A stretch of 25,141 bases of DNA. Origin: a virus. The position numbers were made by a program, and so were the translations under genes. This document shows, one piece after another, positions 48 to 15,200 of the stretch. The first letter of the stretch is position 1, and the number at the start of each line of letters is the position of its first letter. The notes beneath the pieces are model-generated. The model saw only the letters and a program-made list of their open reading frames with translations. It was not told where the DNA came from and made no database searches. The stretch spans positions 1-25,141 of the IMG/VR virus record IMGVR_UViG_3300002514_000228. One strand, 5' to 3'.

Positions 48-767
48 ATGAAAATATTAATCCCAATGGCAGGCGAAGGTAGCCGTTTTACTAAAGAAGG
101 TTACACCTTTCCCAAGCCTTTAATTGACGTTGGTGGCAAACCAATGATCCAGACAGTTGTAGAAAATTTAGATTTTGATTGTGAGTATATTTTTCTGGTG
201 AGAAAAGAACATCTTGAAAAATATACCGGCCTACTACACACTTTAGGTCGTATCACGAATGATAGATTTCGACATGTCGTTGTCGACGGTTTAACAGAAG
301 GGGCAGCGTGTACTGCTCTTTTAGCAGAAAAATATATCAACAATGATGAAGACTTGCTTATAGCTAACTCAGATCAATTCATTCAGTATGAATCGGAAAA
401 TTTTAAAATTTTAAAAAATCTAACAGACGTTGATTCTGCTGTTTTTACGTTCAACGCGGTACATCCGAAATGGTCATTTGTAAAGACGAATTCTCGAGGT
501 TTTGTTACTCAAGTTGCCGAAAAGAAGCCAATATCCAACATCGCAACCTGTGGAATTTACTGGTATCGAAAAGGTTCAGATTTTGTTAAATATGCCAAGC
601 AGATGATTGAGAAAAACGTCCGCGTCAATAATGAATTTTATATAGCACCGGTCTTCAATGAACTAATCCAAGATGGAAAAACACTAATACCTTTTTATGT
701 ACACCAGATGTGGGGTATTGGAACGCCTGAAGACTTAAGATACTTTTTAGAGAACTATAAAAAATGA
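48..767 (+). CDS. Sugar/polyol-phosphate nucleotidyltransferase (NTP_transferase family)
   Basis: This 239-residue protein is predicted to activate a sugar-, polyol- or choline-phosphate with an NTP to give an NDP-linked donor. The N-terminus carries the family's nucleotide-binding signature (PMAGEGSRF, residues 6-14) followed by FPKPL (21-25). A likely metal-binding aspartate lies in ANSDQF (D109), and a late GTPEDL segment (225-230) is typical of the family. The length fits a single Rossmann-like catalytic domain without the C-terminal left-handed beta-helix of longer pyrophosphorylases. The start follows the upstream stop by six bases and has only a weak AGGT ribosome site. Its last four bases (ATGA) overlap the start of the next gene, which begins with a related domain, so the two probably act in one pathway. 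The substrate cannot be told from sequence; LicC-like choline-phosphate or hexose-1-phosphate transferases are the alternatives. Confidence 0.85.
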   Translation: MKILIPMAGEGSRFTKEGYTFPKPLIDVGGKPMIQTVVENLDFDCEYIFLVRKEHLEKYTGLLHTLGRITNDRFRHVVVDGLTEGAACTALLAEKYINNDEDLLIANSDQFIQYESENFKILKNLTDVDSAVFTFNAVHPKWSFVKTNSRGFVTQVAEKKPISNIATCGIYWYRKGSDFVKYAKQMIEKNVRVNNEFYIAPVFNELIQDGKTLIPFYVHQMWGIGTPEDLRYFLENYKK

Positions 768-2821
768 TAGAAAAACTTAACCTTGTCTTCCCAATGGCCG
801 GTGACGGCTCTCGTTTTGATTTCGACTTTAAACCTTTTAAGAAGCTAGGGGACCAGACATTTATTGAACATGCTGTGGAGCCCTTTTATAAATGGAAATA
901 CAACATAGATAAGGTGTATTTTATTTTTAGACAAGATCAGGAAGACACCTATCAAGTATCTGAATACCTCAAGTCAAATATCGCTTTTGACGAAGACCAA
1001 ATAATTCCTATTATCATACCGGAACGGACGAAGGGACCGCGAAACACCATTGAAGAGGCTCTAAAACAAGCCGATATTCCCAATGCCATCGTTTGTGATT
1101 GTGATCATAAAATTATGGTTGATAAGCTTTTCCGTAAAATAATTGACACTCGGTTTGTACAAACTGTTATTCCCGTTTGGAAAATAGATAAGTCTGAAAG
1201 CCATAACTGGTCCAAAGTGGTCGTTGATGGTTCAAAGATTGTCAATATTGTGGAGAAGGAAGACGTTGATTTTGATAAATTTGAAGTCTGGGGAATTTTA
1301 GGCTGTATCTACTTTGCTGATTTAAAGCTTTTTCAAAGGGAAGAATTGGGAGAATATGTCTCGGACGTCTCTCGGGAAGTGCTCTTTTCTGGAAGTGAGA
1401 TTACATTTACTGATGTTGCGGATGCCTATTTCTTTGGCGATCCTGAAATGCTTGACAAGTGTGTTAATAAGAGAAGAAATGAATGTTCTTTTTTCTTTGA
1501 TATTGATGGGGTATTGATAAGACACAGTGATCATTCCACAAACGATACCGAAACCAATTTAAGTCTTAAAGAAAATATAGAATTTCTCAGAAGTTTGAAA
1601 AACCAAAATCATAAAATTGTTATTACGACTGCGCGCAGCACCAAGTATCTTGCAGGATTAAAAAGACTTTTGGAAAAATTAGGTATTCGTTATGACCATA
1701 TTGTCACCGGTTTGGCTTCCGGCCCACGAATATTGATAAACGATAGAAAGCCATCCAAACCATTTACAAAACAAGCACATGCTTTTGAAAATTTTCGGAA
1801 TGAGCCATTAGAAATAAACGTGGGCAGCATTCTTGATAAAAACAAAGAAACTGTCCTTGAAGACATCAGCGCTAATTCTGGCGCCAATACTTATATTATA
1901 CAAAAAGATGACTCAAAAGTTGTACGGAAAATAGTGAACAAAAACATTGTAGACCATGAAAAACACGTCGATGTTTTGAAACGTCAGTATAGGGATCTTG
2001 AAAGGTTTAATCACTTCAGCCCCGCTTCTTGTCCCAAGACTTTAGGCCTGACCGAAAACAATATTGAATGTTATTACGATATGGAGTTTTTAAAAGATTA
2101 CTACAAACTGGACGGGTACAGCAGGAAGGTGCAAACAAAATTACTCAAAAGAGTGATGCAAAATTTAAAGGAAAATGTATATTGCTATAATAAACAGTTC
2201 GACACTTTGCAGGGCAAAACATTCTTTCAAAATTTTATCAATGAAAAGATAATTACCAAACTTAATAGATTCTCTTCGGAAAATCCAGAAATGAAAAAAC
2301 TTATTGATTCCGACAATCTACAGATAAATGGTTGGAATTTTAAAAATCTCAAGGAGTTGTTTAATAAACAAGACCTTTCGAGATTCGCGCCGAAAATGAT
2401 TTCTCCGGTCCATGGAGATCTTACTTTAGAAAACATTCTTTATAATATTGTTAGAGATGATTATAAGCTTATCGATATGGACGGCGCCAAGCTGATGGAC
2501 ACTCATATGTTGGATTTGGGAAAGCTATCACAATCTATTTTGTCGCGATATCACGAATGGAACAAAGCTGATATTGAAATCGGCATCGATGGAAACAATT
2601 TCACCTGCGATCCCCAGTGGTTTGAACCTAAAGACGCCGATGTACGTATGCTGAAAGATGTTTTGCCATATCCTGAAGATACTATCGCAAAATGTATTTT
2701 TTATATGGCCACTTATTTTGTACGCTTCACACCATTTAGATTAAAAAAAGGTGTAAACCATGGTATATTTGCTTTGATAATGTCTATAGTTTGGCTAAAC
2801 AAACTTAATACCTGGAGATAA
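764..2821 (+). CDS. Three-domain fusion: nucleotidyltransferase, HAD phosphatase, APH/choline-kinase-like kinase
   Basis: Three enzymatic modules are visible in 685 residues. Residues 1-240 repeat the nucleotidyltransferase fold of the preceding gene (FPMAGDGSRF at 9-18, lysine-rich FKPFKKLGD at 22-30, acidic CDCD at 111-114). Residues 241-335 are a HAD-like phosphatase: motif I FFFDIDGVL (243-251, D246 and D248), motif II VITTAR (286-291) and the late acidic motif ILINDRKP (323-330, D327). Residues 370-685 are an aminoglycoside-phosphotransferase/choline-kinase-like domain with the catalytic loop VHGDLTLEN (549-557) and the metal-binding IDMDG (570-574). Combining activation, dephosphorylation and phosphorylation in one chain suggests successive steps on one small metabolite. 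The start overlaps the previous stop (ATGA). A GGAG ribosome site for the next gene lies inside its 3' end. The domain calls are firm, but the substrate and the reaction order are unknown. Confidence 0.85.
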   Translation: MIEKLNLVFPMAGDGSRFDFDFKPFKKLGDQTFIEHAVEPFYKWKYNIDKVYFIFRQDQEDTYQVSEYLKSNIAFDEDQIIPIIIPERTKGPRNTIEEALKQADIPNAIVCDCDHKIMVDKLFRKIIDTRFVQTVIPVWKIDKSESHNWSKVVVDGSKIVNIVEKEDVDFDKFEVWGILGCIYFADLKLFQREELGEYVSDVSREVLFSGSEITFTDVADAYFFGDPEMLDKCVNKRRNECSFFFDIDGVLIRHSDHSTNDTETNLSLKENIEFLRSLKNQNHKIVITTARSTKYLAGLKRLLEKLGIRYDHIVTGLASGPRILINDRKPSKPFTKQAHAFENFRNEPLEINVGSILDKNKETVLEDISANSGANTYIIQKDDSKVVRKIVNKNIVDHEKHVDVLKRQYRDLERFNHFSPASCPKTLGLTENNIECYYDMEFLKDYYKLDGYSRKVQTKLLKRVMQNLKENVYCYNKQFDTLQGKTFFQNFINEKIITKLNRFSSENPEMKKLIDSDNLQINGWNFKNLKELFNKQDLSRFAPKMISPVHGDLTLENILYNIVRDDYKLIDMDGAKLMDTHMLDLGKLSQSILSRYHEWNKADIEIGIDGNNFTCDPQWFEPKDADVRMLKDVLPYPEDTIAKCIFYMATYFVRFTPFRLKKGVNHGIFALIMSIVWLNKLNTWR

Positions 2822-2824
2822 AGA

Positions 2825-3532
2825 ATGTCTAATTTTAATATTGATATATACTATGACGGTAGTGACAACATCGAGCAATATTTAGATTGTGTCGATGGAG
2901 TTACCACAAACATTGGTTTTCTTAAGAAATCAAAGATTGTAGACTACAACAAATTCATTCGTGAAACATTAGCGCTTAATAAAGATAAAAAGCCCATTTC
3001 TTTTCAAGTGTTTGGAGCCTCTAAAACGGCTTGTCGAAAGCAAGCCGAAAAGATTAACTTCATCGCAGATGAGTGTGGCTCACCAGTATTCACTAAAATA
3101 CCTATTGTAAGCCCATCAGGAGAGAATTTCACACCTCTAATCCATCAGTTGGTTTTCACCAATCAGTTTAGCATTAATACAACTTGTATATATACAAAAG
3201 ATCAAATAGACGAATTAGCGTTCTTAAGTCAAGCCAAAAGTCCGACAATTGTATCCATTTTTTGTGGCCGCATTGGAGACACAGGTCACAATCCGTTGGA
3301 TATTGTCGACTATGCGGTTTCAAGATTTAGAGACAATGACAACGTAAAAATTCTATGGGCTGGTTGTCAACGGGTTTATGATGTCCAAGTAGCCGAAAAG
3401 TCCGGTTGCGATATTATAACAGTTCCGGAAGGAGTGCTTAAAAAGATGGATCGCTTGGGGACTTCCTTACACGATTTTTCGGTAAAAACATCGTATGACT
3501 TTCATATGGATGGACAAGGTTTAGAGCTTTAA
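2825..3532 (+). CDS. Transaldolase (TalC/fructose-6-phosphate aldolase type)
   Basis: This 235-residue single-domain TIM barrel resembles the small TalC/FSA transaldolases, which move a three-carbon dihydroxyacetone unit between sugar phosphates through a lysine Schiff base. Visible signatures are an N-terminal strand aspartate (YYDGSD, D11), DGVTTN (24-29), the presumed Schiff-base lysine in FTKIPIV (K91), CGRIGDTG (147-154, with R149) and the late CQRVYDVQVAEKSGCDIITV strand-helix-strand (181-200). The usual GR-[IL]-D-D motif reads GRIGD here, an unusual change near the active site. Phage transaldolases are known from cyanophages, where they are linked to pentose-phosphate metabolism. Here the gene sits between sugar-activation and carbamoyl-transfer genes, so a role in making an unusual sugar is at least as likely. 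It starts three bases after the previous stop behind a GGAG site. Confidence 0.85.
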   Translation: MSNFNIDIYYDGSDNIEQYLDCVDGVTTNIGFLKKSKIVDYNKFIRETLALNKDKKPISFQVFGASKTACRKQAEKINFIADECGSPVFTKIPIVSPSGENFTPLIHQLVFTNQFSINTTCIYTKDQIDELAFLSQAKSPTIVSIFCGRIGDTGHNPLDIVDYAVSRFRDNDNVKILWAGCQRVYDVQVAEKSGCDIITVPEGVLKKMDRLGTSLHDFSVKTSYDFHMDGQGLEL

Positions 3533-3542
3533 GGAGAAAGAG

Positions 3543-5135
3543 ATGAAAGTAGCGGGTTTCAATTCTGGTCATGATTGCGCATATGCTGTTTTAGACAATG
3601 GTATTCCCATTATACACGCAGAGTTAGAAAGATACATTAGAATTAAAGAGCCGCCGGGAGATTCAATACAATTTTTATTTGATACATATCCCGAGGCTGA
3701 AGAAATAGTGCATTTTGCACATTGGTCCGAAACAAATCCAAATTGGGCTATTCGCAATAAGTATCCAGAATCATTTAAAAAAGCTCTCCAAACAACTAGC
3801 AAAAATGGTGGCTCCTTTTACGAACCGGGCCATCACTTATGCCACGCTGCTAATGCTTTATTTTCTAGCAATTACAAGGATGCACTCGTAATTACAATTG
3901 ATGGCGGAGGCAGAGATATAATAGACGACCAGTCATTAATTGGTACATTTACGGCGTGGAAAGGCGATGATCTAGATTTTGAATTGTTGGCCTATTTGCA
4001 AGAGCACGAAATTAATATTGGTACAATGTGGAGTCAATGCACTTCCCAAATCTTCGGCCTTTCCAGCGGATATCCAAAAGGGAACCAGTGCGGCAGCGTA
4101 ATGGCCATGGCCTGTATGGGAGATGCATCAAAATATTACGATGAGTTTTATAACCATCGTTTTAAACACCCAAGTATGCGCCCTTTTAATTTTGGAAAGT
4201 TCAAAGAAATCGCAGAAGCATCTGAACAAGGCGCTTTTGACGTCGCCGCAGCATTACAAAGAGCCACCGAAACAGTCGTCAAAGAAATTCTAGATCCACT
4301 TGTAGAAAACTCAGACTCAGATAATATTTGTCTTTCTGGTGGCGTAGTGTTGAATTCAGTTATGACTGGAAAACTGGCTAAAGATTGGTATCCAGATAAA
4401 AACATCTATGTTTGTCCGGTTCCTTATGACGCGGGACTTGCAATCGGCGCCGCTCAATACGTTTGGCATACTATGTTGCGAAACGAAAGAATCCAGTGGG
4501 AAGACAACTGCACACCTTATCTTGGCGTGACACACTCTGAAGAGTCGATAGTTGCAACTTTAAATAGCAGAACAGCGGACGTATTTTGGCATAGAGCAGA
4601 TGTGGATGCGATAGTGGATAAACTAGATCAAGGCTTTATTGTATCGGTTTTCAGCCAAGGATCAGAATCTGGGCGCAGGGCGTTGGGTAATAGAAGCATT
4701 TTAGCTGATCCAAGAAACCCGGATATGAAAGACATCATTAATGAAAAAGTAAAACATCGCCAATGGTATCGCCCCTTCGCCCCCTCCATTATTAGAGAGG
4801 AGGTCAAAAACTGGTTTACAACCGATCAATCGAGTCCCTATATGTCTTTCGTACTTGATTTCACTGAAGAAGCAGCGGAAAAGGTACCAGCAGTCGCACA
4901 CTTTGATAATTCAGCAAGATTGCAAACTGTAACTGAAAAAGATAACGCTTGGTACTACAATTTTCTTAAGAAATGGCAGGAGAAGTCAGGTGTTCCCATT
5001 ATTCTCAACACCAGCTTTAATGATAGAGAGCCAATTGTAGAAAATCCAGATCACGCCGTAAATTGTTTTCTTAAGACGGATATTGATTTTTTGTTTTTCT
5101 GTGATTACAACATTTTGGTGAAGAAAAACAAATGA
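3543..5135 (+). CDS. O-carbamoyltransferase (NodU/CmcH/TobZ family)
   Basis: The 530-residue protein has the two-domain layout of carbamoyltransferases that use carbamoyl phosphate and ATP to carbamoylate a hydroxyl, commonly on a sugar. The N-terminal Kae1-like domain opens with GFNSGHDCA (5-13) and has the metal-binding HHLCHAAN (97-104), TIDGGGRD (118-125) and LSGGVVLNS. The C-terminal YrdC-like domain carries SGRRALGNRSILADPR (about 375-390) and RPFAPSI (about 410), both characteristic of the family, and NTSFNDREP near the end. Length is slightly short of the usual 550-600 residues but no key motif is missing. A strong AGGAG site directly after the previous stop supports this start. The stop overlaps the methyltransferase start (ATGA). 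The acceptor is unknown. Some phage members of this family modify hydroxymethyl groups on DNA bases, but the sugar-gene neighbours favour a glycan. Confidence 0.93.
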   Translation: MKVAGFNSGHDCAYAVLDNGIPIIHAELERYIRIKEPPGDSIQFLFDTYPEAEEIVHFAHWSETNPNWAIRNKYPESFKKALQTTSKNGGSFYEPGHHLCHAANALFSSNYKDALVITIDGGGRDIIDDQSLIGTFTAWKGDDLDFELLAYLQEHEINIGTMWSQCTSQIFGLSSGYPKGNQCGSVMAMACMGDASKYYDEFYNHRFKHPSMRPFNFGKFKEIAEASEQGAFDVAAALQRATETVVKEILDPLVENSDSDNICLSGGVVLNSVMTGKLAKDWYPDKNIYVCPVPYDAGLAIGAAQYVWHTMLRNERIQWEDNCTPYLGVTHSEESIVATLNSRTADVFWHRADVDAIVDKLDQGFIVSVFSQGSESGRRALGNRSILADPRNPDMKDIINEKVKHRQWYRPFAPSIIREEVKNWFTTDQSSPYMSFVLDFTEEAAEKVPAVAHFDNSARLQTVTEKDNAWYYNFLKKWQEKSGVPIILNTSFNDREPIVENPDHAVNCFLKTDIDFLFFCDYNILVKKNK

Positions 5136-5902
5136 AGCTTAAGGACAATAATGACCCCAAAAAGAATCCCAATATAAACTGGGCTCCCCTTTTGACGACA
5201 TGGATTGATTTTTGCAATTATAAAACAATTGTGGAAATAGGAGTCCAACAGGGCGAAACAACAGAAGAGTTTTGTAAAATTGCTCAGAAAATAGGTGGAA
5301 AGGTTTTTGGTTACGATTTTTTTGACAAGATCGGGGCTTATGGCACTGTCGACAGCAAAGTACCTCCGACGCCACCACTAGAAACAATTCGGGAGAAATT
5401 ATTTAATAAGGGGTATGACGACAACGTTTTAAAACTAACTAAAATTGATACTTCAACAGACGAATTTGTTACTGTATTAACACGCGATTTAAAAAAGTAC
5501 CGCAAACGCAGTATTGATTTCGCATTTATTGATGGCTGCCATTCTTACGAAGGTGTAAAGAATGATTTTTTAAAAGTATATCCACTTTTGTCCCCCGAAG
5601 GGACCATTGTTTTTCACGATACTTTTTCTCACGCCGGTCCAAGAAAGTTTGTTTTAGAGCTATATGAAGAAAATGATGGAACATACGACATAATTCATCT
5701 TCCATTTGGTGGAGGCCCAGGTACACAGCCATATGGACGCATAGGCATTGCAATATTAACTAAAAGGAGCTTTGCCTGGAGCGAAGGGGGAATACACAAC
5801 ACCGATCATGATAATCCGCCCCTTGACGAAGAAGAGATTTATAAAAACGAAAAAGAATGGTACGAGAGACAATTAGAAGCAGCACGAGATAGAAAAAAAT
5901 GA
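5132..5902 (+). CDS. SAM-dependent methyltransferase (Methyltransf_24-like)
   Basis: This 256-residue class I methyltransferase-like protein transfers a methyl group from S-adenosylmethionine. Motif I appears as VEIGVQQGETT (34-44), an acidic strand end as FGYDFF (59-64), and motif IV as DFAFIDGCHSYEGVKNDF (129-146). This is followed by GTIVFHDTFSHAGP (157-170), the His-Asp strand typical of Methyltransf_24 enzymes found in glycan and antibiotic loci. The C-terminal 30 residues are acidic and charged, with no recognised domain. It overlaps the carbamoyltransferase stop by four bases and the following glycosyltransferase-like gene by four, so translation is probably coupled. An O-methyl group added to the same sugar that is carbamoylated is the simplest reading. 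The exact acceptor cannot be inferred. Confidence 0.82.
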   Translation: MKLKDNNDPKKNPNINWAPLLTTWIDFCNYKTIVEIGVQQGETTEEFCKIAQKIGGKVFGYDFFDKIGAYGTVDSKVPPTPPLETIREKLFNKGYDDNVLKLTKIDTSTDEFVTVLTRDLKKYRKRSIDFAFIDGCHSYEGVKNDFLKVYPLLSPEGTIVFHDTFSHAGPRKFVLELYEENDGTYDIIHLPFGGGPGTQPYGRIGIAILTKRSFAWSEGGIHNTDHDNPPLDEEEIYKNEKEWYERQLEAARDRKK

Positions 5903-6705
5903 AATTAGCATTGTGTCTATTTGGATATCCAAAAGGCAGCTCTGTATATGCTGCTGATGGTTATCAAGAAAAATATAAGCATTTGTTTGAGCAAGTGATG
6001 GAATATAACCCGGACGTGTTCATTCATTGTTGGGATGAGGATTTGGAAGAAGAAACAGTAAATCTCTTTCAACCTAAAAAATATTTTTTTGAAAAACAAC
6101 TAGATTTTAAAGATGAAATTGCCAAATTGAATATGGAAAGGTTCGCAGGCGGTAGAGGTAACATATTCAAAACATTAAGCTTTTTCTACACCAGAAAGAA
6201 AAGTAACGACTTAAGACTCGAATACCAAAAGGAAAACAATATAGAATACGATTGTGTTGTAACCAGCCGTTTTGACGTTGGCTATCACAACCATGGCCGA
6301 AACAAAACCAGCTACATTGACTTTAACCCTAATTTAGATATGTCTGCAATTTATAGCGCATATTGGGATCAAATTAATGCTGGCTTGTCCGATCACTGGT
6401 TTTATAGCCAACCACCCAATATCGATGTTATATGCGGTATATACGACAAAACTATAGAGTATTTGCAAGAGAATAGTGAATATATGAATGAGATGATGAA
6501 TGGCTGCTTTGATACAAATATAAACGATTGGTTTTCAAACGAGTTCTTGAAAGAGAACGCAGAAAAAACTAATAATTTTCACAAATATGAAGAAAGCTAT
6601 TGTTTAAATAATCATTGTTTATATAAGTGGCATCTATATAAAAACAATCTTTGGCAAAAAGATAAATGCAAATTTTTAAATAAAGGGCTGTGGACTAATG
6701 CATAA
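5899..6705 (+). CDS. Glycosyltransferase-like protein of polysaccharide-locus type
   Basis: This 268-residue soluble protein has no signal peptide or membrane segment. It starts with a short hydrophobic strand (KLALCLFGYPKG, residues 2-13), then PDVFIHCWDED (38-48), a pattern frequent in uncharacterised putative glycosyltransferases of capsule and O-antigen loci. YDCVVTSRFDVGY (117-129) supplies a DxD-like acidic strand (RFD) of the kind used by GT-A enzymes for metal and nucleotide binding, and SDHWFYS follows downstream. It starts within the methyltransferase stop (ATGA) and its end overlaps the dehydrogenase start by eight bases. I place it as a transferase using the donor made by this cassette, based on pattern resemblance and context rather than a confident family match. 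The C-terminal 80 residues are rich in Asn, Tyr and Trp and are not recognised. Confidence 0.55.
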   Translation: MKLALCLFGYPKGSSVYAADGYQEKYKHLFEQVMEYNPDVFIHCWDEDLEEETVNLFQPKKYFFEKQLDFKDEIAKLNMERFAGGRGNIFKTLSFFYTRKKSNDLRLEYQKENNIEYDCVVTSRFDVGYHNHGRNKTSYIDFNPNLDMSAIYSAYWDQINAGLSDHWFYSQPPNIDVICGIYDKTIEYLQENSEYMNEMMNGCFDTNINDWFSNEFLKENAEKTNNFHKYEESYCLNNHCLYKWHLYKNNLWQKDKCKFLNKGLWTNA

Positions 6706-7546
6706 AGTGGGTATTATTGGTAATGGTTTCGTAGGGTCTGCAATTGCAAATGGTTTTGCATTGCATGCTGACGTAAAAGTGTATGATGCTAACCCAAAAA
6801 GAACGATTAACACTTTAGAAGAAGTACTAGATTGTGAATTTGTGTTTGTGGCGGTGCCCACACCGATGGATATGAGAAATAGTAATCACATTGATATATC
6901 GATAGTTCACAATGTATTTGAAGAAGTCTCGAAAAAGAACAAAAGAGACAATATTTTTATTTTGAAATCCACGGTAATTCCAGGCACCACCGAAAGTTTA
7001 CAACGAGAATACCCCAGCCTGAACATTATTTTCAATCCAGAGTTTTTGACCGAAAGAACAGCTTATTTGGATTTTATTAATGCCTCTCGAATTGTCATCG
7101 GGGGTTCAAACGATCACTGTCGGAGAGTAAAAGAGCTTTATAGAAATCGATTTCAGCATACTAAAATTATTTGTACCGATACTAAATCAGCAGAATTTGT
7201 GAAATATATGTGCAATTGTTTTTTTGCAACTAAGATTTCATATATGAATGAAATGAAGGTAGCATCCGACAAGCTCAATTTAGAGTGGGACAAAATAATG
7301 GAAGCATTTTTATCAGATGGTAGAATTGGAAATTCCCACACAGACGTTCCCGGTCATGATGGCCAGCTTGGCTTTGGAGGTAAATGCTTTCCAAAAGATA
7401 TTAATGCGTTTATTAATTTCTATAAAGACATAAATATATACCCCACGATGCTTTATGGAGCATGGGATAGAAATAAAGAAGTAAGAAAAAAACGCGACTG
7501 GGAACAAATCGAAGGCGCGACAACTAAAAAGGAGAAAGTAAAATGA
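6698..7546 (+). CDS. UDP-glucose/GDP-mannose dehydrogenase family protein, short form
   Basis: The family oxidises the C6 hydroxyl of an NDP-sugar to a uronic acid with two NAD+ molecules. The N-terminal Rossmann domain shows GIIGNGFVGSA (5-15), VAVPTP (51-56) and KSTVIPGTT (90-98). The middle contains FNPEFLTE (112-119), EFVKYMCNCFFATKISYMNE (166-185) and the catalytic-cysteine segment GFGGKCFPKD (225-234, C230), so the catalytic residues look intact. At 282 residues it is much shorter than the usual 390-450: the chain ends after the central helical domain, and the C-terminal NDP-sugar-binding Rossmann domain is absent. The next reading frame is unrelated, so this is not a simple split. Either the enzyme works on a different or protein-bound substrate, or it needs a partner. 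It overlaps the preceding gene by eight bases. Confidence 0.85.
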   Translation: MHKVGIIGNGFVGSAIANGFALHADVKVYDANPKRTINTLEEVLDCEFVFVAVPTPMDMRNSNHIDISIVHNVFEEVSKKNKRDNIFILKSTVIPGTTESLQREYPSLNIIFNPEFLTERTAYLDFINASRIVIGGSNDHCRRVKELYRNRFQHTKIICTDTKSAEFVKYMCNCFFATKISYMNEMKVASDKLNLEWDKIMEAFLSDGRIGNSHTDVPGHDGQLGFGGKCFPKDINAFINFYKDINIYPTMLYGAWDRNKEVRKKRDWEQIEGATTKKEKVK

Positions 7547-7779
7547 CAAAAGCACCAGAATATAAATTTTCGAAACAAGCTCTAGGGGCCGTTATGATGG
7601 CTTTGCAACAGTCGTTGCTCGAGCAAAGCGACATTGTACCTGTTTTTGAGAACTTCCGTTTGAAAAATTCAACAGAAGGGTTGGTTGTATTAAATCCACC
7701 ACTTGTTAAATTTAATGCAGAAACCGTAGAACAGTTTCAAGTAGATGATGAAGATGTTGATGCTTCGGCGGCAGATTAA
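7543..7779 (+). CDS. Small acidic phage protein of unknown function
   Basis: I do not recognise this 78-residue protein. It has a helical N-terminal half rich in Gln/Leu (residues 10-28), a hydrophobic middle with NPPLVKF, and a strongly acidic tail (DDEDVDASAAD). There is no membrane segment or cysteine. The start is well supported: a GGAGAAAG ribosome site lies nine bases upstream, and the ATG overlaps the dehydrogenase stop. The stop overlaps the next start by one base. It marks the step from the glycan cassette to small phage genes. Confidence 0.75.
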   Translation: MTKAPEYKFSKQALGAVMMALQQSLLEQSDIVPVFENFRLKNSTEGLVVLNPPLVKFNAETVEQFQVDDEDVDASAAD

Positions 7780-8024
7780 TGCCTGTGTATATTTACGGCT
7801 GTTCTGATTGTTCGGAAGAGTTTAAAGTAAACCATGGTATGCGCGAGAAGTGGGATACGTGTAATTTGTGCAATTCTACAAATATAGCACGTATCCCATC
7901 GCTCCTCACAAAGCTGAAGACAACAGCAAAAGAAGCAAAGGTCGGAGATTTAACAAATGAGTTTATAGAAAACGCCAAAAAAGACCTCCGACAACAGAAA
8001 AAAGGATTGGATAAAAAAAGATGA
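7779..8024 (+). CDS. FmdB-like zinc-ribbon protein
   Basis: The 81-residue protein begins MPVYIYGCSDC, as in FmdB/CxxC_CxxC zinc-ribbon proteins. Two CxxC knuckles at C8/C11 and C28/C31 can bind one zinc ion. The rest is a basic, lysine-rich helix (TAKEAKVGDLTNEFIENAKK onward) that may contact nucleic acid or a partner protein. Such ribbons are frequent in phages, and their role there is unknown; a transcription-related role is possible because the sigma-factor gene follows two genes later. Its start and stop overlap both neighbours (TAATG and ATGA). Confidence 0.8.
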   Translation: MPVYIYGCSDCSEEFKVNHGMREKWDTCNLCNSTNIARIPSLLTKLKTTAKEAKVGDLTNEFIENAKKDLRQQKKGLDKKR

Positions 8025-8326
8025 TCGAAGTATTATTTAGTGTTTCTATTGTTGTAAACTTGCTTTTAGCTTGGTATATCGTGCAGCTTTTAAAGCGATT
8101 TTTAGCTTTTCAAGAGGAGATAGACAACTTTGTTGAAAGACTCACAGAATACGAGGGACACATCGAAATTATTAATAATTTAGAAAGATTCTATGGAGAC
8201 GAAACTCTAGCGAACCTCAGTCGTCACTCAAAAGATCTAGTACGTGAGTGTAAAGAATTAAGATTCATCATTAATGATGATTATGAGAACGATGAGGAGA
8301 TAGAAGAATATGCCACGGAAGCGTAG
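8021..8326 (+). CDS. Small membrane-anchored protein of unknown function
   Basis: This 101-residue protein has one N-terminal hydrophobic helix (residues 3-25, VLFSVSIVVNLLLAWYIVQL) with no clear signal-peptidase site, so it is probably an inner-membrane anchor. The remainder is a charged, likely coiled-coil helix (30-85) with an acidic end. No enzyme motif is visible. The start overlaps the zinc-ribbon stop by four bases and the stop lies 17 bases inside the sigma-factor gene. Its tail also contains the GAGGAG ribosome site of that gene. Function is not known to me. Confidence 0.75.
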   Translation: MIEVLFSVSIVVNLLLAWYIVQLLKRFLAFQEEIDNFVERLTEYEGHIEIINNLERFYGDETLANLSRHSKDLVRECKELRFIINDDYENDEEIEEYATEA

Positions 8327-9026
8327 CAAAAAGAATCATTATTTTACAAAGATTCATGAGCAGGCAATAATTGATTACTGTAATACAGAGGATATGAAGT
8401 TGCGCAATGAACTTTATAAAATTTACATAGGTCCGGTGTTTAGCGAAATGGTGGATAAAATTGTATATACATACAAATTTACTACTTTACCAAACATTGA
8501 TGCATTGCGTGATGATTGCAAGAATTGGTTAATCACAATATTAAACAAGTTCGACCCAAGTAAAGGATCGAAGGCCTTCACTTATTTTAGCGTAGTCTCA
8601 AAGAACTGGTTTATCGCTGAAGTTAAGAAGACTGGCAAAAAGTCCAGAAAAGAGGTGCCTCTCGAGGATTACTATTATGAAAAACCAGGAGGAAATGATA
8701 AGAACTTTGCTTCCCTATCAGGCGCCGAAAACCTCGTTTCTCACAATACATATATTGAGGATAGGATCAAACATGAGTTTTTCGTGGGGCTTTTTAGAGA
8801 AATTAAGTCTTGGGATGACCTTCCTTTGCGACCCAATGAAAGAAAAACAGTCGAGGCCATAAAAATTCTTTTTGAAGATTCTGAAAAAATAGAGATTTTT
8901 AACAAAAAAGCTATTTACCTATACATCAGAGAAATCACCGGTTTAAACACTAAACAGGTTGTTAGCTCTTTAAACAAAATTAGGAAACGCTACGCGGTAT
9001 ACAAAAAAGAATGGGAAAAAGAATAA
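8310..9026 (+). CDS. Late-transcription sigma factor, T4 gp55-like
   Basis: The 238-residue protein carries a sigma-70 region-2-like stretch: CKNWLITILNKFDPSKG (70-86) followed by SKAFTYFSVVSKNWFIAEVK (87-106). This matches the pattern in T4 gp55 and other phage sigma factors where a helix binds the RNA polymerase clamp and contacts the -10 DNA. A basic patch (KKTGKKSRKE) follows. T4 gp55 has about 185 residues, so this one is longer. The extra C-terminus (about 185-235, with REITGLNTKQVVSSLNKIRK) looks like a helix-turn-helix and might act as a minimal region 4. It would direct host polymerase to late promoters of the structural genes downstream. GAGGAG at 8294-8299 supports the start. The end overlaps the next gene by 16 bases. 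Confidence 0.75.
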   Translation: MPRKRSKKNHYFTKIHEQAIIDYCNTEDMKLRNELYKIYIGPVFSEMVDKIVYTYKFTTLPNIDALRDDCKNWLITILNKFDPSKGSKAFTYFSVVSKNWFIAEVKKTGKKSRKEVPLEDYYYEKPGGNDKNFASLSGAENLVSHNTYIEDRIKHEFFVGLFREIKSWDDLPLRPNERKTVEAIKILFEDSEKIEIFNKKAIYLYIREITGLNTKQVVSSLNKIRKRYAVYKKEWEKE

Positions 9027-9316
9027 AAGATTTAGATGCTTACATTGAAGAAGCAGTTAAGAACATTAGAGATGACAGAGACATCACTTCTACTCTATTA
9101 ACGGGTATTTTCGCCCAAATTCAAAAAATAAACGATGCAGATTCACATAAAGACCTGGGCCTTATTGCTTCCAAGTATGTGGAAACTCTGCAACGATCAA
9201 ACGAACAATTAGTAAAAATATCCTCCATAATATCAAAAAAGCAAGATACGGGCGTTTCCTTGGGCGAAGAAGACAAAAAGGAACTTTTTGATATTATCCA
9301 AGGAGATAAAAAATAA
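9011..9316 (+). CDS. Small helical phage protein of unknown function
   Basis: This 101-residue protein is mostly charged and predicted helical, and contains KYVETLQRSNEQLVKISSII (57-76) as its most distinctive segment. It has no cysteines and no membrane segment. The start lies 16 bases inside the sigma-factor gene in another frame. Its 3' end carries the AGGAG ribosome site of the amidase gene and shares one base with that start. By position it could be a transcription co-activator (T4 gp33 sits functionally beside gp55) or a small packaging protein, but I see no sequence match to either. Confidence 0.7.
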   Translation: MGKRIKDLDAYIEEAVKNIRDDRDITSTLLTGIFAQIQKINDADSHKDLGLIASKYVETLQRSNEQLVKISSIISKKQDTGVSLGEEDKKELFDIIQGDKK

Positions 9317-11268
9317 TGACTGACAATACTGTTCATCTTAAAAATACTTTGGATCTTCCCGATGATTTCATTCCTTATGATAAGATGCTGGAGTCTCCAG
9401 CGTCGTTTGTTAAAAAAGTAGTTGCCAAAACTGCATCACCAAACCCCCTTAAGACAAGAAAACAATATTATGGTCGCTTTATAACTCGATTGTTCCAAGA
9501 TAAACTTGAGGGGGATTGTATGTTTGATCCGGTGCTTGCCGCAATGCAACGCTCCGGAGGCGAAGCGACCTCGGCGCTGAAGGTCTTCGTTTGTGTGGTT
9601 TACGTGGAAGAGCTACAATCTTATCCTTTCCCCCAAAAAACAGCGAATGGACAGCTTGATATGGATCTGGTAAGAAAAATTGCTACAAATGATGGCATAT
9701 TTAAATCTTACACTTACTTGCAGTCCGGAGGTCAAGATCTGGAATATGGCGAAAATGTTCTTGTTTCTTTCACTGACCCAGGCGCTAGAAAAGAGGGGAT
9801 CTTTGAATATTCTTTAACAAAGGGCGCAGGTGCCCCCGGTGGAATGCCGGGAGGAGCCGGAGGCCCCGCAGGCGGAGCAGGTGGCTTAGCTGTCCCCGGA
9901 GGCCCTGCTAGCGCCTTCGGCGGTGGTATTATCGCAGACGGTTGCGATGGAAACCAGATAAAACACACTTATAAGAACCCAGCTATTAAAGCTACTCAAG
10001 ACACTGTAGGAGCCAAAGCTCCCCCATGGATAAAAGGCATCGGCGCTGATCCAAAACCCAAGCCAAAAGAAAAAGAAGGAGGTGTCTTATCGCAAATGGT
10101 AGGTGCAGCTTCTGACGATGTTAAAGCAGCAATGAAAAAATATGTACCCGAAGTATTTACTTTGCCCGCAGGCCCAGCTTGCCCCGGCGCATTCCCAGAG
10201 TTTCCCAGTAAGTTCCCCTTGGTCTTAGATAATCGTCACGCACTTAAAGCCAGGGTTGAAGAGGCTGTCGCAAAAGGAAGATTAGGTGGCCCCAAAGGCT
10301 ATGTTCAACGGTATGCAAAATATTATAAATCAAGGAAAATAAAGGCCGAACGAATGGCACAAGGTGTGATGATTATTTTACATAACACAGCCGGTGGCCG
10401 CTCCAAAGCAAGAAAAATCAACGGTGAGCGCCTAGGCAAAAAAACTGGCAAATATCAGACATCGCCATCCCGAAATCTTGAGACATTCGCCGGTCATGGC
10501 ACCCCAGTTCATTTCTTTCTTGATACATACAATGCTTATTGGAATTGGGATTTAGAAAATACCGTAGGCGGCGGCGATCATGATTTGAACGGTTCACGCG
10601 CCAGAATGCCCGCCATTGGTATAGAAATTATGCACTTATCGAATGGAATCATCGGCGCACCTCCCAAATCCTCAAAGGCCAACTTGGTTAGTAGGTCGTA
10701 TTGGAATTATTCAGCGCATATTGGGCGCAGCAAGTGGGAGCTTCAAAACGAAATGCAACGAGACTCGTTAGTGGATAATGCTTTTTCTAGAAAGTATCCC
10801 GGCGGTAATGTTTTACCACCCTCTCAAATAACAGCTCTTCGACAATGTATTCAATTTATTATGTCGTATTTACAAAAGGCATATGGCACGAGGATCGTTT
10901 ATATTGCTACCCACCGTAATGGCTATAGCGGAAAGCCGAGCTGCCCTGGTCAATACGCCATTCGGCACGGAATTGCGCCTGTAATGCAATCATTGGGGCT
11001 GCGACCCTTAAATTTTGCTACTCCTCAAACCATTGATCTTGGCTTTGGTCCAAGAAAATATTCACGTGCAGGTCTGTTATACCCGGAAGCATTTTTTCAC
11101 GATACAATATATGAAACAAATTGGAAGGGGCAACCTTACTTCAAAAAACCCTTTACTAGAGAGTCGGGATGGAACTCAATGAATCGACCTCTTACATTGG
11201 AAGAAGCAATCAAGCATGCTGGCGAAACCACAAATCAGTCTTGGTATAAAGGAAAAGGACTTAAATAA
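9316..11268 (+). CDS. Tail hub-lysin candidate: OB-fold-like N-terminus plus N-acetylmuramoyl-L-alanine amidase
   Basis: The C-terminal half of this 650-residue protein is an Amidase_2 domain, which cuts the MurNAc-L-Ala bond of peptidoglycan. It shows MIILHNTAGG (first zinc ligand H356), GTPVHFFLD (395-403), IGIEIMH (434-440) and ATHRNGYSGKPSCPGQ (531-546, ligands H533 and C543). The H/H/C set and ten-residue spacing resemble AmpD and T7 lysozyme. Upstream, residues 90-165 (KVFVCVVYVEEL; GENVLVSFTDPG) look like the OB-fold that begins T4 gp5. They are joined by a Gly/Pro/Ala linker (169-204) and a Lys/Pro segment (246-256). The beta-helical gp5-like part is the next gene. I infer a virion-borne lysin that opens the cell wall during injection; a free endolysin is less likely given its place in the baseplate genes. 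AGGAG at 9300-9304 fixes the start. Confidence 0.8.
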   Translation: MTDNTVHLKNTLDLPDDFIPYDKMLESPASFVKKVVAKTASPNPLKTRKQYYGRFITRLFQDKLEGDCMFDPVLAAMQRSGGEATSALKVFVCVVYVEELQSYPFPQKTANGQLDMDLVRKIATNDGIFKSYTYLQSGGQDLEYGENVLVSFTDPGARKEGIFEYSLTKGAGAPGGMPGGAGGPAGGAGGLAVPGGPASAFGGGIIADGCDGNQIKHTYKNPAIKATQDTVGAKAPPWIKGIGADPKPKPKEKEGGVLSQMVGAASDDVKAAMKKYVPEVFTLPAGPACPGAFPEFPSKFPLVLDNRHALKARVEEAVAKGRLGGPKGYVQRYAKYYKSRKIKAERMAQGVMIILHNTAGGRSKARKINGERLGKKTGKYQTSPSRNLETFAGHGTPVHFFLDTYNAYWNWDLENTVGGGDHDLNGSRARMPAIGIEIMHLSNGIIGAPPKSSKANLVSRSYWNYSAHIGRSKWELQNEMQRDSLVDNAFSRKYPGGNVLPPSQITALRQCIQFIMSYLQKAYGTRIVYIATHRNGYSGKPSCPGQYAIRHGIAPVMQSLGLRPLNFATPQTIDLGFGPRKYSRAGLLYPEAFFHDTIYETNWKGQPYFKKPFTRESGWNSMNRPLTLEEAIKHAGETTNQSWYKGKGLK

Positions 11269-12274: not shown

Positions 12275-15200
12275 ATGAATAGATGGTACATATATAAAGA
12301 CATTGAGCCCATAACAAAGGGGCAGGTAAAGACTATAAATGAATCTTCCATTGAAAAAATTATGGTTGATTCAGAAGAAACTGTCTACTATCAAATAATT
12401 AATTCAACTGCCGCCACTGGATTACCTAAAAATTTCTTCCCCACGGCACCAGACGCCGAAACAGAAACGGATAAGCCGAGTGGTAATACTGAAGACCCCG
12501 AAATAGAAAAATATATTTTAGAGCGCAAAAAAGCTGCATTGGGCGCCCTCTTGACCCATGGCGGCCAAAATATTCAAGAAGAGGAGACTAAGAAGTTAAT
12601 AGAAAAATTTGCGCCCACTCACGTATATGTAACGGGTGGGTTTTATATACCCCCAGGTCCGGCCGATTTAATTAAATTTCAGTTAATTATAAGAAGCGAT
12701 ACAGAACTCTATAATGCAATTAGGCAACTTTTAGGGGAAGAAGTAGAGCCCGCCAAACCCGAAGAAGATGAAGCCGTAACAGTAACGGGCAAGATCAAAT
12801 TCCGCGCTGATAAATTTTTAAAAGATATTGTATACGTTTCAGAGATCTTTAAAACCTCCTTCAACAGTATGAATGCTACTGATTTAGAGACCCCTTACGA
12901 TTATAATTATGAACTGTCCGGGCAGAACTTATCTATCATTAAATTGCTGGTGGAAGGAGAATTATTAACTACTAAAAAAATTGTTAAATATTTTCGAAAA
13001 GGTAAGTGGCTTCCTCGTAAAAAAATAAATTTATCAAGATATGATATTAGATTTGCTTGGATAGGCACATTAGCCGCTGACCAGCCCACCGACGATATGG
13101 GCGCCCTTGTCATGAAGCTAGATGAAAGTGTCCCTATTACCATACATCAAAAAAACAAAAAGAAGGTTTTAGCTTCTCTAAGTTCTAAGAACTTTAACGA
13201 AAAGTTCGATTCTGAAACACTAGGCGTGTTGATTAATCTTGAGGGGGCAGCTCAATCTTTAAGAGAAAACGAAGCCCCGGTAGGCGTCGACTTAGAAGAA
13301 TTTACTAATCAATATATTATACCCAACCCTAGCAAAGAACAGAAGCCAGTTGAAGTAAAAAAGGTTTTTAACAAGGGGGCTATAAAGTACAAATCTAAAG
13401 AAGAATTAGAAACAGAACGTCTAACTGATAGAGTTAGGAATAAAATTTTCAAAAAAGTAAAAAATGAATTTTTGCAAGTGGGCGACCAAGCATTTTTAGA
13501 AATTCTTAAAAACCGTACAAACATTAAATCCATTGAAGACATCTATAATCAAGTGCTCAAAACAATTCCGGTTGACGCCCTTTTGGATGCCGCCGCCGAG
13601 TGTTTGTTGAAAAGCCTTCCGATAACAGATCTAAAAAAGAAAGTGTGTGACATTGTTTTGGGAGATTTGCAGCCAAAAGACCTTAATAAGATTTTAAAAT
13701 ATATGGGCACAAATACTACCAAAGAGACGAAAAAAGTCAAACAACAATTAATTCAGATAACTAAAAAAAACACGGGCAATTTCAAAGGGGTCCGTTCCGA
13801 GATAATACAATATATTAAAAAAGACGTAACTGCGCGCGATGTTCTCTGCCTTGCCATTTTCGCCGCCATTCCAGCAGCGATTGCGCTGCTCTCAAAACTA
13901 TCCCCCGGCGCCGCCAAAAAATATTTAAAGGAACAGTTCGAAAAGCAAAGAAAGATCGCCGAGATAGATCTTAATGATTATTTTACCCCACCCGTATCGC
14001 CACCGGCAGCACTACCTAGTAATCCCGCTAAGCTGCTTTTAGAGAAATTCGAAATGGGTCTCGACGCATATAATATTACCTCATTGACAGGTGATTGGGC
14101 ATCCTCTCTTAAGGTTGATGTAACAGGTTTGGTTGAAAATTTGGTGGTTGATATGGTTAAGATACTTCTTGAGCAAGTCTCTTATATGTGCGATGGCTCA
14201 AGCGCATCAGATTTCGCCGGTTTTAGTCAAGGCTATGGTTCGGATGGTATTCCTCCGTATGTTGACCCCGTATTTCCATTCGTACCTTATATGTTTAATG
14301 ATTTAATTGATGATCCGATGACATATGGCGTTTTAGGTGATGCCCTTCCAATGGTGACACAAGATGAGATCACCGATTTCTTAGACGCCCTTTCAGAATT
14401 CTTGACTATTTCTGAAATCTGCACCTTAATCAACGGAGGTCCGAATGCCAACCTCATCATTGAAAACATATATGCAGGAATGTTTAAGCTTGAAAGGTTC
14501 AAGAACATAGCTTCGGCACTAAAAAATAGATCTAAGTTTGTAAAGTTTATAGAATTAATAAGCAAAAATGTTGACAAAGGGGTGTGTGTTAGGAAACTTG
14601 ATCAACTTACCAAAACAAAGAAGATTTTAGCTGAATTTTGTGGTCCTTCCTCCAACGGCGCTCTAGTGGAAGATTTAAAAAGAAAAGCCTCAGACGCGGT
14701 TATCGAAAACTTCTTAAATCAAGAAAATGAAATGGCCAATCGGGTTCTTAACGCTATCATGAACCTTAGCGATTTTCAACGAATTGCAGACAAAGCACCG
14801 CCAATATTTTGCGGCCCTGCAACGCCAGGAGAAGAGGATGATAAAGAACCAATACTTAAAGCACAGCAACATCCAAGTCAAAAACACACTAATCGTGTTT
14901 TTATGGACAGGATCTTAAAAACCATTGATAATACTTTTGAGCAAGATCTAATGTCTTATAAGCCTATTCTTGCTTATGGCGGCAACGACGACAAGATGAA
15001 GAAAGCAGTCGTAAATGCATCAAAATACCAAGCAAAAATTTACGGACTTGATGGATTTGACGATATAAATGAAGCTGAAATGAACCAATTAGTCGCGGAA
15101 AACAGCATAATAGCCGCAAAAGTTTATAATACTTTTATTGACAAGTCGCTTATTCATATATCCTCCAAAACAAACGATAGCTACTTGAAAATCAATAGAC

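Follow-up and report, generated by a model that had tools for sequence, protein, structure and literature searches.

A transaldolase paired with a three-domain nucleotidyltransferase-phosphatase-kinase appears to form the core of a glycan cassette in a T4-like phage

The anomeric kinase of the MupP-AmgK-MurU route has the APH fold. In this route, which serves peptidoglycan recycling in Pseudomonas, a HAD phosphatase strips the 6-phosphate from the sugar, and the anomeric kinase together with an RmlA-type nucleotidyltransferase yields an NDP-sugar (PMC5371407). In phages, altering the host surface is the role proposed for the host-recognition cluster of pelagimyophages (PMC7029224) and the sugar clusters of jumbo cyanophages (PMC7824862). 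For the phage carbamoyltransferase that acts on 5-hydroxymethyl-dC, residues W408, G421 and R423 have been reported, and the text is silent on which of them mark DNA-active enzymes (PMC8670742). Here we compare with these systems a seven-gene cassette carried by IMG/VR record IMGVR_UViG_3300002514_000228, of which the whole stretch of 25,141 nucleotides analysed is referred to as the window.

The seven open reading frames are packed tightly on the plus strand (Table 1). The junctions from g1 to g7 measure -4, +3, +10, -4, -4 and -8 bases, giving four overlaps and leaving the transaldolase gene g3 flanked by the 3- and 10-base gaps; the reading frame after g7 overlaps it by 4 bases. A sequence-only reading had described exactly these junctions and these gene families, and the reading frames, Pfam and an AlphaFold model agree with it, the match for g6 being weak. 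The source of the cassette is a fragment of a T4-like myophage genome, and the contig end cuts it, as g1 begins at base 48 and the island of relatives extends several kb further upstream. The same right flank borders differing glycan genes in the window and in L034, L036, L045 and L029, and tail genes lie downstream, such that nucleotide-sugar and glycosyltransferase genes form a variable stretch between conserved phage modules, the arrangement of a phage glycan or surface-modification island. No near-identical DNA to the window was found in the phage collection, and every phage record, that of the window among them, is either a fragment or of unstated completeness. The T4 late-promoter octamer TATAAATA occurs no more often than expected by chance, with none near the cassette. 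None of the seven genes matched a PADLOC model, and an anti-phage defence function was dropped for that reason.

Table 1. Features of the cassette and its right flank, in window coordinates
Feature	Coordinates	Strand	Basis or content
g1, sugar-1-phosphate nucleotidyltransferase, RmlA/MurU/HddC-like, phrog_3980	48..767	+	Pfam NTP_transferase above cut-off
g2, predicted nucleotidyltransferase + HAD phosphatase + APH/NahK-type kinase, 685 aa	764..2821	+	AlphaFold model, motifs
g3, class I transaldolase/FSA-type, TIGR02134-like	2825..3532	+	Pfam TAL_FSA, Schiff-base Lys91
g4, NodU/TobZ-type O-carbamoyltransferase, phrog_1601	3543..5135	+	Carbam_trans N and C domains
g5, SAM methyltransferase, accessory	5132..5902	+	Methyltransf_24 above Pfam cut-off
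g6, putative GT-A glycosyltransferase	5899..6705	+	weak fold match; kept in both phage lineages
g7, short nucleotide-sugar dehydrogenase, UGD-like, phrog_9148	6698..7546	+	UDPG_MGDP_dh N and central domains
Fixed right flank of the island	7543..9316	+	small ORFs 7543, 7779, 8021, 9011; gp55-like sigma factor 8310-9026

The Pfam families of g1, g3, g4 (N and C), g5 and g7 (N and central) all exceed their cut-offs. On the MurU equivalog model (NCBIfam NF045761) g1 scores 32.7 bits against a cut-off of 250, and g2 is not listed. In another phage lineage g1 is fused to a beta-phosphoglucomutase-like HAD (L039-L041, L043, L046), and in L034 a HAD gene adjoins it; judging from these arrangements, the HAD partner of g1 would fall left of the contig end here. 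The O-carbamoyltransferase g4 (PF02543, 73.5 bits; PF16861, 205.6 bits) has homologues in 32 viral contigs. For g6 there is no family match and its model is weakly GT-A-like, with matches (best Z 8.0) too weak to name a family from the fold. As had been proposed, g7 is a short NDP-sugar dehydrogenase: it retains the catalytic-Cys motif GFGGKCFPKD and is related to UGD, and falls outside that family as defined by NAD-binding, central and C-terminal UDP-binding domains, the last of which it lacks. It is 34% identical to the copy in the nearest relative, where neighbouring genes are 62-81% identical, and is a displaced or exchanged allele. Among the viral loci compared, g5 is present in the nearest relative only, as is the combination of g5 with g7, and both genes are accessory, lying outside the wider recurring set.

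The g2 protein contains a nucleotidyltransferase domain (about residues 1-235), a HAD phosphatase domain (about 240-345) and an APH/NahK-type kinase domain (about 360-685). The HAD domain gave a sub-threshold Pfam match only, and Pfam returned no significant match for the N-terminal nucleotidyltransferase or the kinase; the predicted identities of these two rest on fold and on catalytic motifs that are invariant or nearly so across 12 phage and bacterial homologues. In the AlphaFold (AF2) model (pLDDT 80.6) the nucleotidyltransferase domain best matches 4evw (Z 19.2), and its best fold matches are sugar-1-phosphate nucleotidyltransferases; weak sequence matches to IspD and other cytidylyltransferases were also seen. 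The kinase domain matches APH(2'') (Z 18.2), the anomeric kinase NahK (Z 17.6) and the choline/ethanolamine kinase 3dxq (Z 17.5), and with less than 1 Z unit separating NahK-like, aminoglycoside and choline/ethanolamine kinases, its sugar substrate is one that we infer. The HAD phosphatase, APH-fold kinase and sugar-1-phosphate nucleotidyltransferase domains thus all lie in g2 with conserved motifs, anomeric specificity being predicted. A split version, in which a nucleotidyltransferase-HAD gene adjoins a separate kinase gene, occurs in a marine virus and in Prochlorococcus (L048 and L071), and no plasmid match for g2 was found. The similarity of the HAD domain to Pnkp raised a role in RNA repair, which was rejected because neither a P-loop kinase nor a ligase accompanies it; its partner domains are an APH kinase and a nucleotidyltransferase of the sugar type.

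Searches with single proteins proved too narrow (one gave no matches, another two loci) and alignments were needed to recover relatives. Ten full-length viral relatives of g2, 36-62% identical, were found, and in all ten a transaldolase gene lies directly downstream, overlapping g2 or separated from it by no more than about 11 bp. The divergences of g2 and g3 are correlated (Spearman 0.70, a value reached in 6 of 5000 permutations). The g3 protein belongs to the transaldolase family (PF00923, 67.5 bits against a cut-off of 27, with the Schiff-base Lys91 invariant), scores 167.7 on TIGR02134, below the equivalog cut-off of 281.95, and has cyanophage talC as a distant relative (27% identity). 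In phage L042, g2 and g3 are the only cassette genes present. The seven genes are therefore unequally tied and the strict unit is g2 with g3, a trifunctional protein and a transaldolase that together appear to be a new and undescribed pairing.

The pairing extends to bacteria. An initial scan of bacterial genomes found no g2 relative and a deeper alignment yielded six, located in polysaccharide loci; a transaldolase gene lies directly upstream in three of these (L050, L051, L054), and none was found within 10 kb of g2 in the other three. In a Prochlorococcus genome a transaldolase also adjoins a second, divergent copy. In that genome a transaldolase of TIGR02134 type directly borders a run of GmhA-like, HddA-like and HddC-like genes with a GmhB-like HAD nearby, so that the grouping of transaldolase, kinase, HAD and nucleotidyltransferase recurs there with a non-homologous kinase. 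Outside the seed genomes, no trifunctional protein was found in 41 genomes of the genus Prochlorococcus or in sets of 369, 385 and 292 further genomes, with one nucleotidyltransferase-HAD-only protein as the sole exception, and the g2-type protein is rare among the bacterial genomes sampled.

Beyond this pair, two divergent phage lineages that differ in gene order and genomic place both keep g1, g2, g3, g4 and g6 together, which supports a functional set. About six genes beyond the window edge form a larger set with g1, g4 and g6, and this set is reshuffled in the divergent lineage, where it sits between nrd and uvsX genes. The earlier proposal of a single seven-gene pathway, against which separate and unlinked genes in relatives would speak, is partly supported: g2-g3 are unparted in 10 of 10 viral contigs, and g1, g4 and g6 stay linked with them in the two lineages. 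A single linear pathway of seven genes is too strong, because g5 and g7 fall outside the wider set and L042 lacks the other five genes. A two-gene core with an exchangeable decoration set fits better.

We consider it likely that the cassette belongs to a phage glycan island, of which it forms the right-hand part, and acts as a nucleotide-sugar module supplying a surface glycan that is carbamoylated and possibly methylated. The gene content and its linkage, the conservation of catalytic residues, the domain folds and the kinship to bacterial polysaccharide loci are as described above, and reaction order, substrate, acceptor and biological role we infer as follows. The g3 enzyme would make or adjust a ketose or heptose phosphate from the pentose-phosphate pool (of sedoheptulose-7-P or fructose-6-P type), the HAD phosphatase and anomeric kinase of g2, in either order, would relocate the sugar's phosphate from the far end to C1, and its nucleotidyltransferase domain would convert the sugar-1-phosphate to an NDP-sugar. 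A second NDP-sugar may come from g1 and the mutase-like HAD that in relatives sits just outside the window, and g7 may oxidise one NDP-sugar to a uronic acid. Assembly would be by g6 and upstream transferases, with O-carbamoylation by g4 and possibly O-methylation by g5, and the final place of the glycan would most likely be a surface, either virion protein or host envelope. The carbamoylated, methylated sugar proposed from sequence thus stays plausible, and its phospho-linkage found no support. The priming glycosyltransferase PF02397 is absent from 12 phage records, weak evidence against a lipid-linked route; a flippase search with PF01943 gave no usable answer, since the putative flippase of the bacterial locus L050 escaped it too. 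The standard D-glycero-D-manno-heptose route is incomplete in the phage contigs, as the phosphoheptose isomerase GmhA (SIS_2, PF13580) was found neither in the window nor in 10 related phage contigs, sequences that may all be incomplete. Tentatively, and at somewhat less than even chances, the transaldolase and the one-polypeptide nucleotidyltransferase-HAD-kinase could constitute an undescribed portable pathway from ketose phosphates of the pentose-phosphate cycle to an NDP-ketose or NDP-heptose that dispenses with a separate isomerase, common to phages and scattered bacterial surface-polysaccharide loci.

Other explanations have to be weighed against this. That independent glycan or metabolic genes were heaped at one insertion spot with no common pathway is unlikely: the hypervariable spot beside a fixed right flank, the shuffling of gene order from lineage to lineage, the displaced g7 allele and the bare g2-g3 of L042 would all fit, but g2 and g3 are never separated in the viral contigs and are found again in polysaccharide loci of bacteria, divergent phages carry no fewer than five window genes and about six neighbours as a group elsewhere in the genome, and a HAD is fused to g1 or adjoins it. 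A slightly poorer prospect is that g2 activates choline, ethanolamine or a polyol, in the manner of LicA/LicC and CDP-alcohols, for a phospho-linked substituent. The choline/ethanolamine kinase 3dxq is level with NahK and the weak cytidylyltransferase matches (IspD and others) point the same way; this reading leaves no role for the HAD domain or the constant transaldolase partner, however, and the top nucleotidyltransferase folds are those of sugar-1-phosphate enzymes.

DNA bases, also named as a target by the sequence-only reading, are disfavoured. We regard as highly improbable that g4, perhaps with the glycosyltransferase and methyltransferase, modifies 5-hydroxymethyl-dC or another base and so blocks host nucleases, even though a phage-type carbamoyltransferase of the g4 Pfam families yields 5-carbamoyloxymethyl-dC (PMC8670742). 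That enzyme is found together with a thymidylate synthase/dCMP hydroxymethylase, and where glycosyltransferases flanked the carbamoyltransferases, the DNA of origin was unmodified (PMC8670742). The corresponding homologue (PF00303) is missing from 14 of 15 related, possibly incomplete contigs, including records of 185-190 kb, and from the recognised genes of the window, and base modification has no need of the g2-g3 chemistry. Least credible to us is that g3 aids the pentose-phosphate pathway in infection, as proposed for cyanophage talC, with its adjacency to g2 incidental. The transaldolase fold, the conserved Schiff-base lysine and the distant kinship with talC would allow it, but talC of S-SM1 adjoins nrdAB and hypothetical genes with no glycan cluster, whereas in each of the viruses examined, and also in bacterial surface-polysaccharide loci, a transaldolase of the g3 type is paired with g2.

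On the glycan-module reading, g2-g3 offers a concrete two-gene module, present in viruses and in bacterial polysaccharide loci, for turning common metabolites into an unusual sugar in activated form. A phage transaldolase gene need not be a pentose-phosphate helper and, if the reading is true, some of those taken for carbon-metabolism genes are glycan genes. Telling the conserved core apart from exchangeable decorations (carbamoyl, methyl, uronate) also aids asking what phage glycan islands coat.

Among known systems, MupP-AmgK-MurU has three activities equivalent to those predicted for g2, but as three separate proteins acting on MurNAc-6-P with no transaldolase, whereas g2 is one protein beside a transaldolase, and both g1 and g2 fall far under the MurU equivalog cut-off. 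The GmhA-HddA-GmhB-HddC heptose pathway likewise applies a kinase, a HAD and a nucleotidyltransferase to a sugar phosphate derived from the pentose-phosphate pathway, and such a run abuts the g3-type transaldolase in the Prochlorococcus genome; its proteins are separate, its kinase is of the GHMP family, to which the APH-fold kinase of g2 does not belong, and it requires the GmhA isomerase, which was not found in the phage contigs. The CDP-6-D-glucitol pathway of the Campylobacter capsule likewise serves a surface polysaccharide by activating a metabolite of the transaldolase type, fructose-6-phosphate, with a cytidylyltransferase and a reductase only and without HAD, kinase or transaldolase (PMC10918830). 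The phage 5-hydroxymethyl-dC carbamoyltransferase shares its Pfam families with g4, but it neighbours a thymidylate-synthase homologue where g4 neighbours sugar genes (PMC8670742). The pelagimyophage and jumbo cyanophage islands are likewise hypervariable, belong to marine T4-like phages and carry glycosyltransferase and nucleotide-sugar genes, and the available portions of their texts contain neither the word transaldolase nor carbamoyltransferase and no mention of a trifunctional nucleotidyltransferase-HAD-kinase (PMC7029224, PMC7824862). Phage glycan islands are thus already known, and it is the pairing of g2 with g3 that appears to be new.

The seven-gene cassette and the tight packing of its genes that the sequence-only reading had described were confirmed when ORF coordinates and junctions were checked, and the families of genes 1, 3, 4, 5 and 7 (a nucleotidyltransferase, a transaldolase, a carbamoyltransferase, a methyltransferase and a short nucleotide-sugar dehydrogenase, respectively) are secure as judged from sequence. 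Because gene 1 starts only 47 bases from the contig end, the cassette is cut there. A T4-like tail module occupies the right half of the 25,141-base IMG/VR virus record, with gp25- and gp6-like baseplate wedge proteins, and the nearest matches of one wedge protein point to a lineage far from cultured phages.

Locations of features in the window and in related loci
Feature	Location	Observation
Seven-gene cassette	48-7546	
Gene 7	6698-7546	
gp55-like sigma factor	starts 8310	
650-aa protein	9316-11268	amidase-like sequence (ILHNTAGG, THRNGYSG); 53-base overlap with next ORF; no Pfam or PHROG match
1863-aa protein, baseplate region	12275-17866	no PHROG match
Baseplate wedge protein	18304-20100	nearest: Microcystis phage Mel-JY01 (32%), Flavobacterium phages (31%)
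Gene 7 counterpart	L034:12246-13055	
SHRGN protein	L034:3837-4286; L046:14873-15316	also in L013, L014, L024, L027; no Pfam match for L046 copy
Phage contig gene row	L024:14412-18218	CMP-sugar-synthetase-like, HMGL-aldolase-like, SDR and NT-HAD genes; second aldolase plus NT-HAD arrangement
187 kb phage contig	L022 / G014:180800-181537	carbamoyltransferase and PF00303 homologue
Legionellales locus	L050:13368-20096 (also L073)	transaldolase and gene 2, then putative flippase, GmhA-like isomerase, further sugar genes (AroB-related sugar-phosphate cyclase, TIGR04425; HpcH-type aldolase; NeuA-like cytidylyltransferase); unusual sugar cluster

In an AlphaFold model of the gene 2 product, built from 11 homologues (pLDDT 80.6, pTM 0.49), the N-terminal domain resembles nucleotidyltransferases (best match 4evw with Z 19.2 across 199 residues, GalU/RmlA next), and a C-terminal kinase begins at about residue 350; a HAD domain, a sub-threshold Pfam match, lies in the middle. 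The kinase best matches APH(2'') (Z 18.2 over 269), and other matches are the N-acetylhexosamine 1-kinase NahK (Z 17.6 over 289) and choline/ethanolamine kinase (Z 17.5); these scores are too close for fold to tell a sugar from a choline/ethanolamine-type substrate, and a sugar is the putative one. When 12 homologues from phages and bacteria are compared, some with as little as 27% identity, the catalytic motifs of the three domains (DCDH; DxDG and ND.KP; HGD....N; kinase ID.D) show no or almost no variation.

An alignment-based scan placed gene 2 in 11 viral contigs, and in all ten with a full-length copy the transaldolase lies directly downstream, with an overlap or a gap of no more than about 11 bases. 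One of the ten is a GC-richer phage (L042) in which the other five cassette genes were not found nearby. The linkage from which a single pathway had been proposed is retained in two relatives, phage contigs L034 and L035, which have all seven genes and the same right flank, but the order differs. A divergent lineage (L039, L040, L041, L043 and L046) carries the carbamoyltransferase, gene 2, transaldolase, gene 6 and a HAD::gene 1 fusion, together with a glycosyltransferase, a WecB-like epimerase, a GT-D-like protein and a GDPD-like SHRGN protein, in a block between a ribonucleotide-reductase gene and uvsX, away from the baseplate genes. That one gene set recurs at two genomic positions, arranged differently in each, supports the view that its members work together. 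Genes 5 and 7 fall outside the set common to both lineages; gene 7 is only 34% identical to its L034 counterpart whereas neighbouring cassette genes are 62-81% identical, and it has therefore been exchanged, as an allele swap in a conserved slot. The SHRGN protein, which is small and conserved, starts (M)xxISHRGN and is glycerophosphodiesterase-like by eye, recurs in phage carbamoyltransferase islands.

A scan of 84,980 genomes gave six full-length bacterial homologues of gene 2 with 29-34% identity (one from a Legionellales MAG, two from single-cell genomes of Prochlorococcus, two from Actinomycetota MAGs and one from an alphaproteobacterial MAG), which form a supported clade distinct from phage gene 2. 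The trifunctional protein was also rare in broader genome sampling. Polysaccharide-type genes are present in the loci read in detail; in three of the six, a transaldolase gene immediately precedes gene 2, and in three none lies within 10 kb. The identities of genes 2 and 3 co-vary (rho 0.70; 6/5000 permutations). In one Prochlorococcus genome a divergent gene 2 copy adjoins a transaldolase, and another stretch of the same contig reads as a heptose-type operon, in which HddC-, HddA- and GmhA-like genes adjoin a transaldolase of TIGR02134 type and a GmhB-like HAD is close by. Both this genome and Marine virus AG-345-E15 encode NT-HAD and APH kinase in separate genes that lie side by side.

Carbamoyltransferases adjoining a thymidylate-synthase homologue modify 5hmC, and those adjoining glycosyltransferases came from contigs with unmodified DNA (PMC8670742). 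PF00303 was not found in 14 of 15 related contigs, including three with lengths of 185-190 kb; this and the carbamoyltransferase context make DNA bases, previously listed among the likely targets, an unlikely one. The phage of contig L022, which does have PF00303, is a candidate for real 5hmC carbamoylation. Virion glycosylation would fit the late-gene position in the window's lineage, but not the divergent lineage's location next to nrd and uvsX; the glycan may end on the virion or on the host envelope. Glycan islands of pelagimyophages (PMC7029224) and jumbo cyanophages (PMC7824862) are interpreted as host-surface modifiers. No priming transferase (PF02397) was found in 12 phage records.

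In the proposed surface-glycan island with genes 2 and 3 at its core, the HAD and kinase of gene 2 would swap a distal sugar phosphate for a C1 phosphate, and its nucleotidyltransferase domain would then nucleotidylate the sugar-1-phosphate. The constant presence of the transaldolase suggests that the substrate comes from the pentose-phosphate pool, and because this transaldolase type sits in a heptose-type operon, sedoheptulose-7-phosphate or a similar ketose phosphate is favoured, steps and substrate both being proposals. A GmhA-type isomerase was not found in the phage contigs (the window and 10 related, possibly incomplete), and the product may thus be some other heptose or a ketose, unless the isomerase comes from the host.

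Phage glycan islands are already known, as are all the enzyme families and the logic by which NDP-sugars are made; no description of the trifunctional NT-HAD-kinase or its fixed transaldolase pairing was found in the open-access papers searched. Gene 2 would follow the same HAD, kinase and nucleotidyltransferase logic as MupP-AmgK-MurU (PMC5371407), and likewise that of GmhB-HddA-HddC.
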